From Fidelibacterota bacterium (GTDB lineage Bacteria > Fidelibacterota > Marinisomatia > Marinisomatales > TCS55), in contig JACNKN010000054.1 in assembly GCA_014382015.1 (NCBI GenBank), positions 1-64,000 on the forward strand: a DNA stretch of 64,000 bases, given 5' to 3'. The notes beneath the pieces are model-generated. The model saw nothing but the letters and a program-made list of their open reading frames with translations, was not told the DNA's origin and ran no database searches. Below are positions 20,654-26,093 of this stretch, one piece after another. Made by a program: the position numbers and the translations under genes. Each line of letters begins with the position of its first letter. Within the stretch, counting starts at the first letter, position 1.

Positions 20654-20754
20654 AATTTTTCGCTCTGAGAAAAGCCGATAAATTTACACTTTATATATAT
20701 TGTATGCCAATGAATGCATTGGTTCTTTTAAATGGTTTTTCCCTAAATTCAGAC

Positions 20755-21498
20755 ATGAAGAAAAAAGTATTTATTACAGGTGCAAGCAGTGGTATTGGTG
20801 AATATTTAGCTTATGCCTATGCGAAACGAGGATATTTTATTGGATTGGTGGCTCGTAGAAGAGATAGGTTGGAGAAAGTGGGAACCCATTGTTCCGAATT
20901 AGGTGGTCAAATAAAAATATATGCAATAGACGTTCTGAAGGGTGACGACTGCAAAACGGCTATCGATAATTTTATTTCCCTGCCCGGCGACATGGACTCC
21001 ATTTATGCCAATGCCGGTGTGGGCAGTCCCGATGGATTAAGTTCTGGCAGTGCTGAAAATATGAACCATGTGTTAAGCGTAAATATATTGGGCGTCACCA
21101 ATACAGTTATGCCTTTTATCCCGCATTTAAAAGAAATACAAGATGGTAAAATTGCCGTGATTAGTTCTGTGGCCAGTTTTCGTGGTTTGGCTCATCATGC
21201 CGCCTATAGCGGTTCGAAGGCAGCGGTCCGAAACATAAGCCAGGGATGGAGCACTGCACTTTATAAACATGGTATTTCTGTCACTGCTGTCTGTCCTGGT
21301 TTTATTAAAAGTGAAATGACGGGAGACAATGAATTCCCCATGCCATTCCTCATGGAAACACATGTGGCCGTTCAAAAAATAATCCGTGCAGTTGACCGAA
21401 GGAAAAAAGTATTTATTTTCCCCTGGCAAATGAAATATTTTATGGTTCCTTTAATGAAATGGGCGCCGGACTGGATGTTCCGAAAAGTAGGAATGTAA
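20755..21498 (+). CDS. Short-chain dehydrogenase/reductase (first gene of lipid cassette)
   Basis: This 247-residue classical SDR has the cofactor motif TGASSGIG (residues 8-15), NAGVG near 90, catalytic Ser in VISSVASF and YSGSK for the Tyr-x-x-x-Lys pair. Arginines in VARRRDRL after the second strand suggest NADPH preference. ATG 20755 gives a normal Rossmann N-terminus; ATG 20704 would add 17 residues that look non-coding. The C-terminal hydrophobic MKYFMVPLMKWAPDWMFRK resembles SDRs acting on membrane lipids. The substrate is unknown; its position suggests a role with the downstream lipid enzymes. Confidence 0.8.
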   Translation: MKKKVFITGASSGIGEYLAYAYAKRGYFIGLVARRRDRLEKVGTHCSELGGQIKIYAIDVLKGDDCKTAIDNFISLPGDMDSIYANAGVGSPDGLSSGSAENMNHVLSVNILGVTNTVMPFIPHLKEIQDGKIAVISSVASFRGLAHHAAYSGSKAAVRNISQGWSTALYKHGISVTAVCPGFIKSEMTGDNEFPMPFLMETHVAVQKIIRAVDRRKKVFIFPWQMKYFMVPLMKWAPDWMFRKVGM

Positions 21499-21567
21499 CC
21501 GGTACTCTGTGGATTAACTCAATTATTTTCGGCGTCAACCACCCTTTTATCTGAATTTTATTTATGA

Positions 21568-21583
21568 TTTAATTTGAATTAAA
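21568..21583 (+). promoter_or_regulatory. AT-rich palindrome upstream of HMG-CoA reductase gene
   Basis: TTTAATT and AATTAAA flank TG as perfect 7-bp arms, 19 bp before the GTG start. It lies in the 104-bp gap after the SDR gene. It could be an operator for a lipid-responsive regulator or simply AT-rich symmetry; nothing beyond symmetry and place supports it. Confidence 0.3.
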
Positions 21584-21602
21584 ATCAAGTAGATTCGGAG
21601 CC

Positions 21603-22763
21603 GTGGCTAACCAAAAAAATAACAAAAAATCAAGAATTCCCAATGGCTATAATTCTGATGATAAAAAGAGGCGTATCGCTTGGCTGGAGGATTATACCGG
21701 TTTTAATTATATAGATTCTCCTGTTAATCCACCTGAAGAACTTAAGGGGATCATTGAAAACCATATTGGATTTATGAAAATCCCAATGGCAATTGCCGGA
21801 CCATTGCGATTGGATGGCCAATATGCCAAAGGTGAATTTTTTGTCCCTATTTGTACCTTAGAGGGTACGCTGGCTATTTCCATGACCCGGGGAATGTATG
21901 CTTCTTCCATTTCTGGCGGCATTCGGGTCCGCCATGCAAAACAAGAATTGTCACGAGCACCCGTCTTTATTTTTGAAGATTTGAATGATTCCTTTGAATT
22001 CATACGCTGGGTAAATGACCATTATGAAGATATTAAAAAAGTAGCTGAATCCACCACCCAGCATGGAAAACTTCTAAGGATTGATCAATATCCCGTTCAG
22101 AATTATGTCATCCTTGATATTATTTTAGATACAGGAAATGCCGCAGGCCAAAATATGGTCACCCTGGCAGCAAAAGTCGCCTGCGATTATATTAAAGAAC
22201 AAACTGGCCATGAATTCATCCTTGAGTCCGGTTTCAACAGCGATAAAAAAGCATCCTCCAGAAATATGATTATGGGACGGGGACACACGGTTTTAGCAGA
22301 GGTTACCCTCACCCATTCAGTTATGAGACGTTTCCTGGGCATCAACCCCAAGGATGTGGAAAGATTCCAGCAATTAGGCCCCACAATCACCACCATGGCC
22401 GGCACCTCAGGTTGCCATCTCCATATTTCCAATGCACTGACGGCGATTTATTTGGCCACGGGACAGGATACAGCATGTGTAGCCGAAAATGCCATGGGAC
22501 ATTTCCAAACGGAACCAGTAGATCATGGTATAAAATGCAGGCTGACACTTCCTTCCCTCACCGTTGGAACCGTCGGTGGCGGTACCCGCCTCCTTCCTCA
22601 GCAACAAAATTTGGAATTCCTGGGATGTCATGAAGGTGAATACTCTTCTCGGAAACTTGCAGAGATTATAGGCGCATCCGCGCTGGCATTGGAAATTTCC
22701 CTCATGTCTGCCATAGCATCCGATACATTTGCCATGGCTCATATGAAATATGGTCGAAAGTAA
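21603..22763 (+). CDS. Hydroxymethylglutaryl-CoA reductase, class I-like
   Basis: The enzyme reduces HMG-CoA to mevalonate with NAD(P)H. The 386-residue protein aligns by eye with class I HMGR: ENHIGFMKIPMAIAGPL, TLEGTLAIS (catalytic Glu), SDKKAS (Lys), ATGQD (Asp), GTVGGGTRLLPQQ and a C-terminal AMAHMK (His), so all four catalytic residues are present. The GDAMGMNM-type motif is altered to DTGNAAGQNMVT. The start is GTG 21603 with GGAG very close; no better start exists upstream. The acyltransferase gene starts right at its stop (TAAATG). No other mevalonate-pathway gene is in the window. Confidence 0.85.
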   Translation: MANQKNNKKSRIPNGYNSDDKKRRIAWLEDYTGFNYIDSPVNPPEELKGIIENHIGFMKIPMAIAGPLRLDGQYAKGEFFVPICTLEGTLAISMTRGMYASSISGGIRVRHAKQELSRAPVFIFEDLNDSFEFIRWVNDHYEDIKKVAESTTQHGKLLRIDQYPVQNYVILDIILDTGNAAGQNMVTLAAKVACDYIKEQTGHEFILESGFNSDKKASSRNMIMGRGHTVLAEVTLTHSVMRRFLGINPKDVERFQQLGPTITTMAGTSGCHLHISNALTAIYLATGQDTACVAENAMGHFQTEPVDHGIKCRLTLPSLTVGTVGGGTRLLPQQQNLEFLGCHEGEYSSRKLAEIIGASALALEISLMSAIASDTFAMAHMKYGRK

Positions 22764-23510
22764 ATGACCCAATCAACGGTTCTTGATAATCCAAAATATT
22801 CATATTTAGTTAAAAAACAACCGGCATTCTTTCGCGTTTGGAAAAAACTATTTTATTATTATACTAAATTTGTTTTTCTCTGGTACACACCACTAAAAGT
22901 TTATGGTCGGGAAAATATTCCTGATACCTCTTTCATTTATTCCTGTAACCATAATAGCCATATGGATGTCGCTTTACTTGCAGCATCCGTCAACAAAAGT
23001 TTTAATTATTTTGGAATGCTTGCAGCAAAAGATTACTGGTTTGATAATCGGTTCAAACGATTCTTTATGAGGATTATTATGAACTTAATTCCTATCGACC
23101 GGAAAATAAATGATGTTCGAAAATTTTCTATCGATGACACGATCACATTATGCAATGCTTTCATGGCTTTTGATAATCGAAACTTAATTATGTTTCCTGA
23201 AGGAACCCGGGGAAATCCTGGTGAAATGCGTCCTTTCAAAACAGGCGGTGCAATTTTCGCAATCAAACTCAATGTCCCAATATTACCTGCGTTGGTTTTC
23301 GGTTCACATCAGGCTTGGCCTAAGGACAAAATTTTCATGCGTCCCACTCCTATTCATATCCACATATTAGATCCCATATATCCTGAGCAGTTTATTCAGG
23401 GAAATTCTTCGGGGGAATTCGATGAAGATATTATCAAACAGGCTGCCCAAAAAATGACCACACAATTGGAAAACACAATCCGTGAAAAAGGAAAAATATT
23501 CTATGGATAA
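22764..23510 (+). CDS. PlsC-like lysophospholipid/glycerolipid acyltransferase
   Basis: The 248-residue protein has the acyltransferase motif I NHNSHMD (around residues 53-59, His and Asp catalytic), motif III MFPEGTRG and the following PFKTGGAIFA, with an N-terminal membrane-associated stretch (WKKLFYYYTKFVFLWY). Family members acylate position 1 or 2 of glycerol-3-phosphate derivatives. It abuts the HMG-CoA reductase stop and overlaps the AGPS-like gene by 8 bases, so the three are probably co-translated. In the ether-lipid context it might acylate dihydroxyacetone phosphate or a 1-alkyl lyso-lipid; which one cannot be told from sequence. Confidence 0.85.
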   Translation: MTQSTVLDNPKYSYLVKKQPAFFRVWKKLFYYYTKFVFLWYTPLKVYGRENIPDTSFIYSCNHNSHMDVALLAASVNKSFNYFGMLAAKDYWFDNRFKRFFMRIIMNLIPIDRKINDVRKFSIDDTITLCNAFMAFDNRNLIMFPEGTRGNPGEMRPFKTGGAIFAIKLNVPILPALVFGSHQAWPKDKIFMRPTPIHIHILDPIYPEQFIQGNSSGEFDEDIIKQAAQKMTTQLENTIREKGKIFYG

Positions 23511-25275
23511 ACTGTATAAAACTAAATATGAAAAATTCTTTGCCCATACGCATAATACATGGGGACATAAATGGGGTTATAAAGATACAAAATTTGTCCT
23601 GAATGATGACCGTACGGTCCGGATGGCGGGTGATCGTTATGAGTTATGCGGGTCGGACATGCCTGATTTTATACCTTATATCGAAGAAATGCTGGGTATC
23701 ACCATTGACCCAAATGACACACTTTCTGAAGTTGAAAATAAACCGGTTCGGGGATCCAATATTAATGAACAATTCTTGGAACAGGTTAAATCCACCTTCC
23801 CGGATGATCGGTTCAGTTTTGCAGACGATGACCGATTAATTCATAGTCATGGACAAACCACATCAGAGGAAGTGTATAAGGTTCTTTATTCTGAAGTTAA
23901 ACGCAATATTGATATGGTGTTTTATCTGGAATCAGAAGATGAAGCTGTTCAGTTGATTCAACTCGCTGATCGGTTTGATGTATGCCTTGTCCCCTTTGGT
24001 GGTGGAACCAGTGTAAGCAGTGCACTCATCATTCCTCAATCAGAAACGCGAATGGTTGTGGCCGTTGATACCCGTCGCATGGACAAGATCGAATGGATTA
24101 ATGAAGAGGATCGTCGGGTTTGTATTCAGGCTGGGATTACCGGCAGCCGAATGGAAGAGCTACTGGAAGAAAAAGGATTTACGGTTGGGCATGAACCGGA
24201 TAGTATTGAACTTTCAACCCTGGGCGGGTGGATTGCTACCAATGCCAGTGGAATGAAAAAGAACCGTTATGGTAATATTGAAGATATTGTTGAAAACGTA
24301 ACCATGGTATCACCCAATGGCACGATCGAACAAGTGGATCCAATCATACGGGCATCCATTGGAATTAAGCCACAAAATATATTATTTGGATCCGAAGGTA
24401 ACCTTGGCCTGATCACAAAAGCGGTTTTAAAACTCCATAAAAAACCAGAAACCAAAAAATATAATTCTGCTGTTTTTCCAAATTGGAAAGCAGGCGTAAA
24501 ATTCCTTTATGAACTTTCCAAAACTAATTTTATTCCTGCCAGTGTTCGCCTTGTGGATAACGTCCAGTTCCGCTTTGGGCAGGCATTGAAACCCAAAACA
24601 GAAGGTATTCATAAAACCATCGACTCCCTGAAAAAATTCATGGTCCTTAATATAAAGGGTTTTGACCCCGATAAAATGTGCGCGTCTACTTTTGTCATGG
24701 AGGGATCCAGAGAAGAAGTGGCGTACCAGGAAAAGAATATATCAAAACTGGCTAAGTCTTGTGGTGGACTTATCGGCGGTGAGGAGAATGGAAAACGAGG
24801 CTACATGCTTACATTCGCGATTGCTTATGTTCGTGATTTTCTCACCGATTTTCATGTGATCGGTGAAACCATGGAAACCTCCGTACCATGGAGTAAAATA
24901 AAACCGACCTGCGAGGCGGCACACGAAAAACTGATTGAACTCCACAAAAAACATAATTTCCCGGGGAATCCATACATGTCCTATCGAATTCCCCAGATTT
25001 ACCATACGGGTGTTTGTATTTATTTTATGTTGGGAATGAGCATAAAGGGAGTACCTCATGCGGAAGATGTTTTTGGATCCATTGAGCATGAGATTCGAAA
25101 GGTAATCATGGAAAATGGCGGTTCGATTTCTCATCATCACGGTGTGGGGAAATTACGTAAAGATTTTATGTCGAATACCCTTTCCCAATCGAGTATTAAC
25201 CTGATTAAGAATATTAAAAAAGTACATGACCCAAAAAATATTTTTGGTATTCGGAATAACGTATTTTCCGATTAG
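23503..25275 (+). CDS. Alkyldihydroxyacetonephosphate synthase (AGPS-like FAD enzyme)
   Basis: AGPS swaps the acyl chain of acyl-DHAP for a fatty alcohol, forming the ether bond. The 590-residue protein follows the human enzyme almost along its length: N-terminal WGYKDTKFVLNDD, FAD-binding PFGGGTSVSSAL (about 164-175), GHEPDSIELSTLGGW with ASGMKKNRYGNIED (about 229-261), GEENGKRGYMLTF, a conserved Tyr507 in CIYF and the His cluster SHHHGVGKLRK (His544-546). A generic glycolate oxidase or lactate dehydrogenase would lack these. ATG 23503 is preferred over GTG 23482; AAGGAA precedes it. No peroxisomal or signal sequence is visible, so it is probably cytosolic or membrane-peripheral. Confidence 0.9.
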   Translation: MDKLYKTKYEKFFAHTHNTWGHKWGYKDTKFVLNDDRTVRMAGDRYELCGSDMPDFIPYIEEMLGITIDPNDTLSEVENKPVRGSNINEQFLEQVKSTFPDDRFSFADDDRLIHSHGQTTSEEVYKVLYSEVKRNIDMVFYLESEDEAVQLIQLADRFDVCLVPFGGGTSVSSALIIPQSETRMVVAVDTRRMDKIEWINEEDRRVCIQAGITGSRMEELLEEKGFTVGHEPDSIELSTLGGWIATNASGMKKNRYGNIEDIVENVTMVSPNGTIEQVDPIIRASIGIKPQNILFGSEGNLGLITKAVLKLHKKPETKKYNSAVFPNWKAGVKFLYELSKTNFIPASVRLVDNVQFRFGQALKPKTEGIHKTIDSLKKFMVLNIKGFDPDKMCASTFVMEGSREEVAYQEKNISKLAKSCGGLIGGEENGKRGYMLTFAIAYVRDFLTDFHVIGETMETSVPWSKIKPTCEAAHEKLIELHKKHNFPGNPYMSYRIPQIYHTGVCIYFMLGMSIKGVPHAEDVFGSIEHEIRKVIMENGGSISHHHGVGKLRKDFMSNTLSQSSINLIKNIKKVHDPKNIFGIRNNVFSD

Positions 25276-25286
25276 ATTAACCCAAG

Positions 25287-26093
25287 ATGAACCTTTCTGG
25301 AAAAACATTTATTGTAACCGGAGCTTCTTCCGGAATTGGTAAAGTTTTATCGAAAAAACTCGCCACAAAGGGGGCTCAAATTATATGTGCTTCTCGAAAT
25401 TTAGATAACCTGAATCGCGTTGTTGAGGAAATTAAGATTCAAGGCGGTACGGCAATTTCAGTCCAAACAGATATCACCCAAATGGATCAATGCCAGTTAT
25501 TAGTAGAGAAAACTATCAATCATTATGGAAAATTAGATGCATTGGTTTTGAATGCTGGTATCAGCATGTGGACCCCTTTCGAATCTTTAAAAGATGTGAG
25601 TTTTTTTCGCCAATTAATGGAAACTAATTATATGGGCGCCGTTCATTGCTGCCACGCCGCATTGCCCTTTTTAAAATCATCTAATGGTTTAATCGTTAAT
25701 TGTTCAACCGGCCAGGCATTAATGGGATTCCCCAATCATACAGGATATGCAGCATCCAAACATGCACTCCGCGGATTTTTGGCATCTTTGGATATTGAGA
25801 TGAAGGGTGAAATACAATTTCTTGATGTCATTATGGGATGGATTCGCGGCACGGGATTAAGAGAAAATGCTTTTGGCCCCAATGGACAAAAACTTGGAGA
25901 AACAAAACGAAATCATACCAGCCAGTCCGTACCTCTTATTGAGTGTGTCCAAGCGATTGTTTCGGGAATTGAAAATGATAAAAAAGTGATTTACATCCCG
26001 AAAAAACTACGGCTTGTCCCCTTTTTTAATGTTTTTTTTAAAGGTCTATTAAACAGGAAAGTGGCAAAAGCTGTGAATGATCATCAAGATTAA
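25287..26093 (+). CDS. DHRS7-like short-chain dehydrogenase (candidate acyl/alkyl-DHAP reductase)
   Basis: This 268-residue SDR has TGASSGIG (12-19), NAGIS, METNYMGAV, a Ser in NCSTGQ and YAASKHALRGFLASLDIEM with the catalytic Tyr and Lys. The METNY, YAASKHA and downstream GPNGQKLGE features resemble the DHRS7/DHRS7B group; DHRS7B (PexRAP) reduces acyl- and alkyl-DHAP in animals. Its position 11 bases after the AGPS-like gene makes it the natural candidate for that step. The SDR family is broad, so the substrate remains inference. It is the last gene of the cassette and converges with the porV-like gene. Confidence 0.8.
   Translation: MNLSGKTFIVTGASSGIGKVLSKKLATKGAQIICASRNLDNLNRVVEEIKIQGGTAISVQTDITQMDQCQLLVEKTINHYGKLDALVLNAGISMWTPFESLKDVSFFRQLMETNYMGAVHCCHAALPFLKSSNGLIVNCSTGQALMGFPNHTGYAASKHALRGFLASLDIEMKGEIQFLDVIMGWIRGTGLRENAFGPNGQKLGETKRNHTSQSVPLIECVQAIVSGIENDKKVIYIPKKLRLVPFFNVFFKGLLNRKVAKAVNDHQD

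Follow-up and report, generated by a model that had tools for sequence, protein, structure and literature searches.

The stretch of DNA analysed here (the window) comprises 64,000 nucleotides of contig JACNKN010000054.1 from a 2.54 Mb Marinimicrobia genome (Fidelibacterota bacterium, assembly GCA_014382015.1). Its open reading frames include five + strand genes at positions 20755-26093, lying in one direction throughout: a short-chain dehydrogenase/reductase (SDR1), a homologue of 3-hydroxy-3-methylglutaryl-CoA (HMG-CoA) reductase (HMGR), a PlsC-like acyltransferase, an alkylglycerone-phosphate synthase (AGPS) and a second SDR (SDR2) (Table 1). An earlier note on this DNA had described them as a compact, co-directional ether-lipid cassette, and both the common orientation and the tight spacing of the last four genes are confirmed: SDR1 and the HMGR-like gene are separated by 104 bp, and the following junctions measure 0 bp (HMGR-like/PlsC), -8 bp (PlsC/AGPS) and +11 bp (AGPS/SDR2), the start ATG of AGPS lying inside its overlap with the PlsC-like gene in a frame open from 23482. 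Family assignment of the five proteins through Pfam, NCBIfam and PDB searches upheld the SDR, PlsC-like and AGPS-like identities given in that note. Next to the block lie yicC on one side and, on the other, paired PorV-like and mutS genes of the reverse strand; in a promoter and terminator scan the number of sites did not exceed that of shuffled sequence.

Table 1. Genes of the block, with positions in the window
Gene	Position	Strand	Remarks
SDR1	20755-21498	+	Accessory neighbour outside the conserved core; alternative ATG at 20704
HMGR-like gene	21603-22763	+	GTG start; PF00368 4.6e-97; proposed FcrA-type NADPH fatty acyl-CoA reductase
PlsC-like acyltransferase	22764-23510	+	PF01553 7.6e-22; proposed dihydroxyacetone phosphate (DHAP, glycerone-phosphate) or sn-2 acyltransferase
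AGPS	23503-25275	+	PDB 4bby 1.6e-150; catalytic residues kept; AGPS clade
SDR2, classical SDR	25287-26093	+	PF00106 4.6e-47; proposed acyl/alkyl-glycerone-phosphate reductase (DHRS7B role)

A survey of 245 Marinimicrobia genomes identified AGPS in 54, the HMGR homologue in 52 and neither gene in 191. In all 52 genomes coding for the HMGR homologue, AGPS lies downstream at a distance of 714-894 bp, on the same strand of the same contig and with the PlsC-like gene in between; none of the 245 has the homologue but lacks AGPS (Fisher's p for co-occurrence 2e-51, a rough guide only given shared descent). With a linked HMGR homologue in 52 of the 54 AGPS genomes, the arrangement is not a product of chance; the two remaining genomes are G140, in which the locus is cut by a contig end, and G193, considered below. 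The PlsC-like gene is present in every cassette examined, and SDR2 lies directly downstream of AGPS at every examined locus extending far enough. The conserved unit consists of the four genes HMGR-like, PlsC-like, AGPS and SDR. SDR1, which the earlier note had counted as a fifth member, occurs upstream of the core only in the window, L073 (G089) and L078 (G096), is missing from the other cassettes, and was rejected as part of the unit on account of its synteny, which the window shares with two close relatives only. The synteny search proposed in that note recovered the core at several unrelated genomic positions across Marinimicrobia, flanked according to lineage by yicC and porV-mutS, by an unrelated set of genes in L072, by a third in L075 and L082, and by a fourth in L079 and L091. 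Since it remains intact among unrelated flanks, the core has been held together while its surroundings changed. Within the genus of the window (g1) the cassette is present in seven genomes and absent from six, some of the latter >90% complete, a patchy distribution that suggests repeated loss or transfer. One contig end (L118:8769-9213, G189) duplicates the start of the HMGR-like gene (1687 onward), probably as an assembly-end duplication.

The identification of the window protein as a genuine AGPS is close to certain from its sequence. Its closest PDB match is guinea-pig peroxisomal AGPS, followed by Dictyostelium AGPS (4.9e-83), and the flavin adenine dinucleotide (FAD) oxidases of lactate-dehydrogenase type score far more weakly (3pm9, 1.1e-21, ~60 orders of magnitude below Dictyostelium AGPS). 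The residues T309, R419, R515, Y578 and H615-H617 (guinea-pig numbering), which we take to be the catalytic sites of AGPS, are shared without change by the window protein, 14 relatives and 6 other bacterial AGPS; R419H and Y578F appear as the mutant PDB entries 4bc7 and 4bca. In a paralogue from the window genome (L001) these residues are gone, H617 excepted. Phylogenetic analysis placed the window protein inside the AGPS clade, as the earlier note had presumed, and joined Marinimicrobia to two eukaryotic sequences (99/98), although branches are long and sampling is thin. The description of this AGPS as eukaryote-like was nevertheless overstated: bacterial AGPS are widespread, and despite the tree the window protein is 43-45% identical to myxobacterial, acidobacterial and Sericytochromatia AGPS and 42% to that of guinea pig. 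Remote matches in G157, G001, G025 and G004 (28-32% identity) were excluded as AGPS-like oxidases. They form a separate group related to AGPS in other Marinimicrobia. In at least two of its loci (L112:3403-6646 and L114:3086-6290) the AGPS-like FAD oxidase occurs with a glycerol-3-phosphate dehydrogenase-like gene, a pairing confirmed by Pfam in these two; the G001 and G004 loci (L113, L115) appear to have the same pairing.

The HMGR homologue departs from its annotation at the substrate pocket. FcrA, a fatty acyl-CoA reductase derived from HMGR, keeps the HMGR catalytic residues, and its hallmarks are the replacement of S684 by an acidic residue, of the pocket lysine by a small one and of L862 by a bulky one (PMC11948995); the lysine is printed there as Lys795, and the numbering offset in that paper fits Lys735. 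The window protein carries all three changes (S684E, K735G, L862F), having lost the residues that bind HMG in the HMG-CoA reductase of the mevalonate pathway, and in its relatives position 684 is E or D, 735 is never K, and 862 is F or W. Human, archaeal and Streptomyces mevalonate-operon HMGRs retain S, K and L at these positions. The catalytic E559, K691, D767 and H866 are kept in the window protein and 35 relatives, except for one unread X. The protein is 386 aa long and consists of the catalytic core only. In a tree that included no published FcrA sequences, canonical HMGRs formed a separate group (96/92), and the window protein fell with other non-canonical bacterial homologues. HMG-CoA synthase was found in none of the 245 genomes by a search that was positive in four control genomes (later mevalonate enzymes were not searched), and GcpE, of the methylerythritol 4-phosphate (MEP) route, is present in the window genome. 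The wax-ester synthase WS/DGAT was likewise found in none of the 245 genomes; this search gave no match in control genomes at first, and its repeat on outgroup genomes was positive in 4/7. Wax esters are therefore unlikely as a sink for the fatty alcohol, and such a role was rejected. Taken together, the window protein is most likely an FcrA-type fatty acyl-CoA reductase performing the fatty-alcohol step. Two further homologues were observed outside Marinimicrobia: an FcrA-like protein of Sericytochromatia that bears an APH-type phosphotransferase domain at its C-terminus (L095:348-2681), whose genome also has AGPS and a FAR-PlsC fusion (FAR, fatty acyl-CoA reductase), and a homologue on a Sinorhizobium plasmid (L099:3998-5242) within an acyl-CoA carboxylase-type cluster, in which the catalytic Lys is apparently not Lys in the alignment and which perhaps serves another non-mevalonate role.

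G193 is the sole complete AGPS locus without the HMGR homologue, and in it the same slot holds a 563-aa FAR that overlaps the start of PlsC (PF07993 and PF03015; PDB 7eoz, a fatty acyl-CoA reductase, 2.4e-75). A similar FAR occurs in only 2/245 genomes; the second, a partly contaminated assembly that lacks AGPS, contains just a fragment with 36% identity. As the AGPS of G193 nests in the tree next to its counterpart from G190, a carrier of the HMGR homologue (100/99), the history is most simply explained by FAR having replaced the HMGR homologue. A FAR-PlsC fusion comes after AGPS in Myxococcales, Sericytochromatia and one unclassified bacterium; next in line, where the contig is long enough, is an extended SDR. 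Such loci pair AGPS with a fatty-alcohol-forming reductase, and it is this place that the Marinimicrobia HMGR homologue appears to take. At the acidobacterial loci L086 and L088 a classical SDR was found beside AGPS, and no FAR was observed there. The plasmalogen desaturase family PF10520 was not found in the window genome, and saturated alkyl ethers are therefore expected rather than plasmalogens. Elsewhere in G193 (C17), a CarF/PEDS1-type Lipid_desat protein (L117:4658-5473, - strand; PF10520 3.5e-44) has a cyclopropane-synthase-like gene on one side and a fatty-acid desaturase on the other, and G193 may be a plasmalogen producer; true CarF outside myxobacteria has been reported only from Leptospira (PMC9131029).

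Directly observed are the layout of the genes, their families, the residues of the active sites, the obligate linkage and the replacement by FAR in the same slot; from these we infer the catalytic activities and the production of ether lipids itself. The core at 21603-26093 very probably constitutes an ether-lipid module for the early peroxisome-type steps, with alcohol supply of the FcrA type. The HMGR homologue would reduce fatty acyl-CoA to fatty alcohol with NADPH in a four-electron reaction, the PlsC-like protein would convert DHAP to acyl-DHAP, AGPS would combine acyl-DHAP with the fatty alcohol to produce 1-O-alkyl-DHAP, and SDR2 would reduce the ketone of the latter to 1-O-alkyl-glycerol 3-phosphate (1-O-alkyl-G3P), which would then feed normal phospholipid synthesis; the order of the proposed reactions is that of the genes in the core. 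The ether-lipid reading of the earlier note is thus well supported by a true AGPS with its catalytic residues and by the conserved PlsC-AGPS-SDR order, and the cassette appears more complete than described there, as the fatty-alcohol step, left without an enzyme, is most likely filled by the HMGR homologue. The action of the PlsC-like protein on DHAP and that of SDR2 (a classical SDR, NCBIfam PRK06181 above cut-off) as acyl/alkyl-DHAP reductase are suggested by family and pathway need.

Two alternative scenarios concern the AGPS-like protein and the HMGR homologue. The AGPS-like protein shares the FAD_binding_4/FAD-oxidase_C superfamily with D-lactate, glycolate and 2-hydroxyglutarate dehydrogenases and matches NCBIfam GlcD, although far under the cut-off; that it is an oxidase of this type and no ether synthase is nonetheless barely credible, given that AGPS is matched at 1.6e-150 and the dehydrogenases only at about 1e-21, and that Y578, R419, R515 and the HHH motif are retained. 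Alternatively, the HMGR homologue might be a true HMG-CoA reductase of mevalonate and isoprenoid synthesis, its adjacency to AGPS reflecting isoprenoid or archaeal-type ether lipids. Its class I fold, the conservation of every HMGR catalytic residue and a best PDB match to an archaeal HMGR would agree with this, and the earlier note had indeed named it a class I HMG-CoA reductase. The fold family stands, but that function is very probably wrong: the three HMG-contact residues are lost, no HMG-CoA synthase was found in the 245 genomes, the MEP marker GcpE is present in the window genome, and a FAR occupies the same slot in G193. We consider a mevalonate role very improbable and rejected it on the absent HMG-CoA synthase and the altered pocket; residues, linkage and displacement by FAR, by contrast, all speak strongly for the FcrA-type assignment.

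A third alternative differs in one step only and is therefore a variant of the proposed pathway: fatty alcohols and ether lipids would be made, the PlsC-like protein acting as sn-2 (alkyl-G3P) acyltransferase and acyl-DHAP coming from another acyltransferase of the genome. The best structural match of this protein is a PlsC (5kym, 2.3e-17), and four further PF01553 proteins score above cut-off at other sites in the window genome. Acyl-DHAP is, however, required by AGPS, an acyltransferase is linked to AGPS or FAR in both Marinimicrobia and Myxococcales-type loci, and its equivalent in Myxococcus has been termed GNPAT-like (PMC9131029). We regard the variant as a serious possibility, though short of an even chance. 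That the PlsC-like protein could act at sn-2 is one of several points weighing against the module as proposed above. The replacement by FAR was seen in one case only, and the breadth of the SDR superfamily precludes a firm assignment of SDR2. The N-terminal Lad domain, confined to certain FcrA and present in the two most closely studied (PMC11948995), is missing from the window protein, which represents a distant branch; moreover, position 735 varies across its family (G, F, Y, A, L, S), against mostly small residues at the pocket-lysine position in FcrA (PMC11948995). Disruption of AGPS in Myxococcus reduced ether lipids only slightly (PMC9131029).

In mammals, the peroxisomal ether-lipid pathway relies on FAR1, GNPAT, AGPS and DHRS7B. 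The same four reactions are proposed for the Marinimicrobia core, whose AGPS is homologous with identical catalytic residues and whose last enzyme is, like DHRS7B, an SDR; unlike in the mammalian pathway, FAR1 is replaced by an unrelated enzyme family, the acyltransferase is PlsC-like, and the genes form one operon-like block without an organelle. The myxobacterial elb cluster likewise concerns bacterial alkyl ether lipids and involves the FAR and PlsC-type domains of ElbD, but ElbD combines several domains in one protein (FAR, ACS, ACP, acyltransferase), AGPS not among them, and the Marinimicrobia block has no ElbD-like gene. Closer in content is the Myxococcus xanthus operon MXAN_1676-1674, coding for AGPS, a fusion of FAR1 and a GNPAT-like domain, and an NAD epimerase (PMC9131029), whose AGPS with FAR-PlsC fusion recurs in the myxobacterial-type loci L084, L085, L087 and L090. 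There too, the genes linked to AGPS code for a fatty acyl reductase, an acyltransferase of PlsC/GNPAT-like type and a reductase. In Marinimicrobia, by contrast, fatty acyl reductase and acyltransferase are encoded by two separate genes, the former being an HMGR homologue; the SDR is classical, and the gene order differs. With FcrA (PMC11948995) the window protein shares the class I HMGR fold, the catalytic residues, the three pocket substitutions and a host without HMG-CoA synthase; unlike it, the window protein lacks the Lad domain, is linked to AGPS instead of WS/DGAT and is distant in sequence.

AGPS had already been reported in Marinisomatota (49/134 metagenome-assembled genomes from the Black Sea; PMC11868695), and a contribution of FcrA to ether lipids was suggested earlier from a looser linkage, AGPS lying nine genes from FcrA in Promineifilum (PMC11948995). 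These two papers were the only relevant ones that literature searches for an FcrA-AGPS operon brought up. Three features appear to be new: the obligate association of the four genes in an FcrA-PlsC-AGPS-SDR cassette, their linkage across the phylum, and the exchange with FAR within one slot. More tentatively, FcrA-type HMGR homologues might be a widespread source of fatty alcohol for AGPS-dependent ether lipids, these and not wax esters representing their old or original role, although we would not call this likely. If true, it would account for AGPS-bearing bacteria without FAR1 such as Leptospira, which has AGPS and lacks FAR1 (PMC9131029).

On genetic grounds, our results argue strongly that ether-lipid synthesis is supplied by a reductase derived from HMGR, and the exchange of HMGR-type and FAR1-type enzymes at one slot constitutes a clean case of non-orthologous gene displacement. 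They also caution against taking the annotation of an HMG-CoA reductase beside lipid genes as a sign of mevalonate synthesis, and point to likely production of alkyl ether lipids in several families of this abundant marine phylum, whose early pathway would be complete within a single block.

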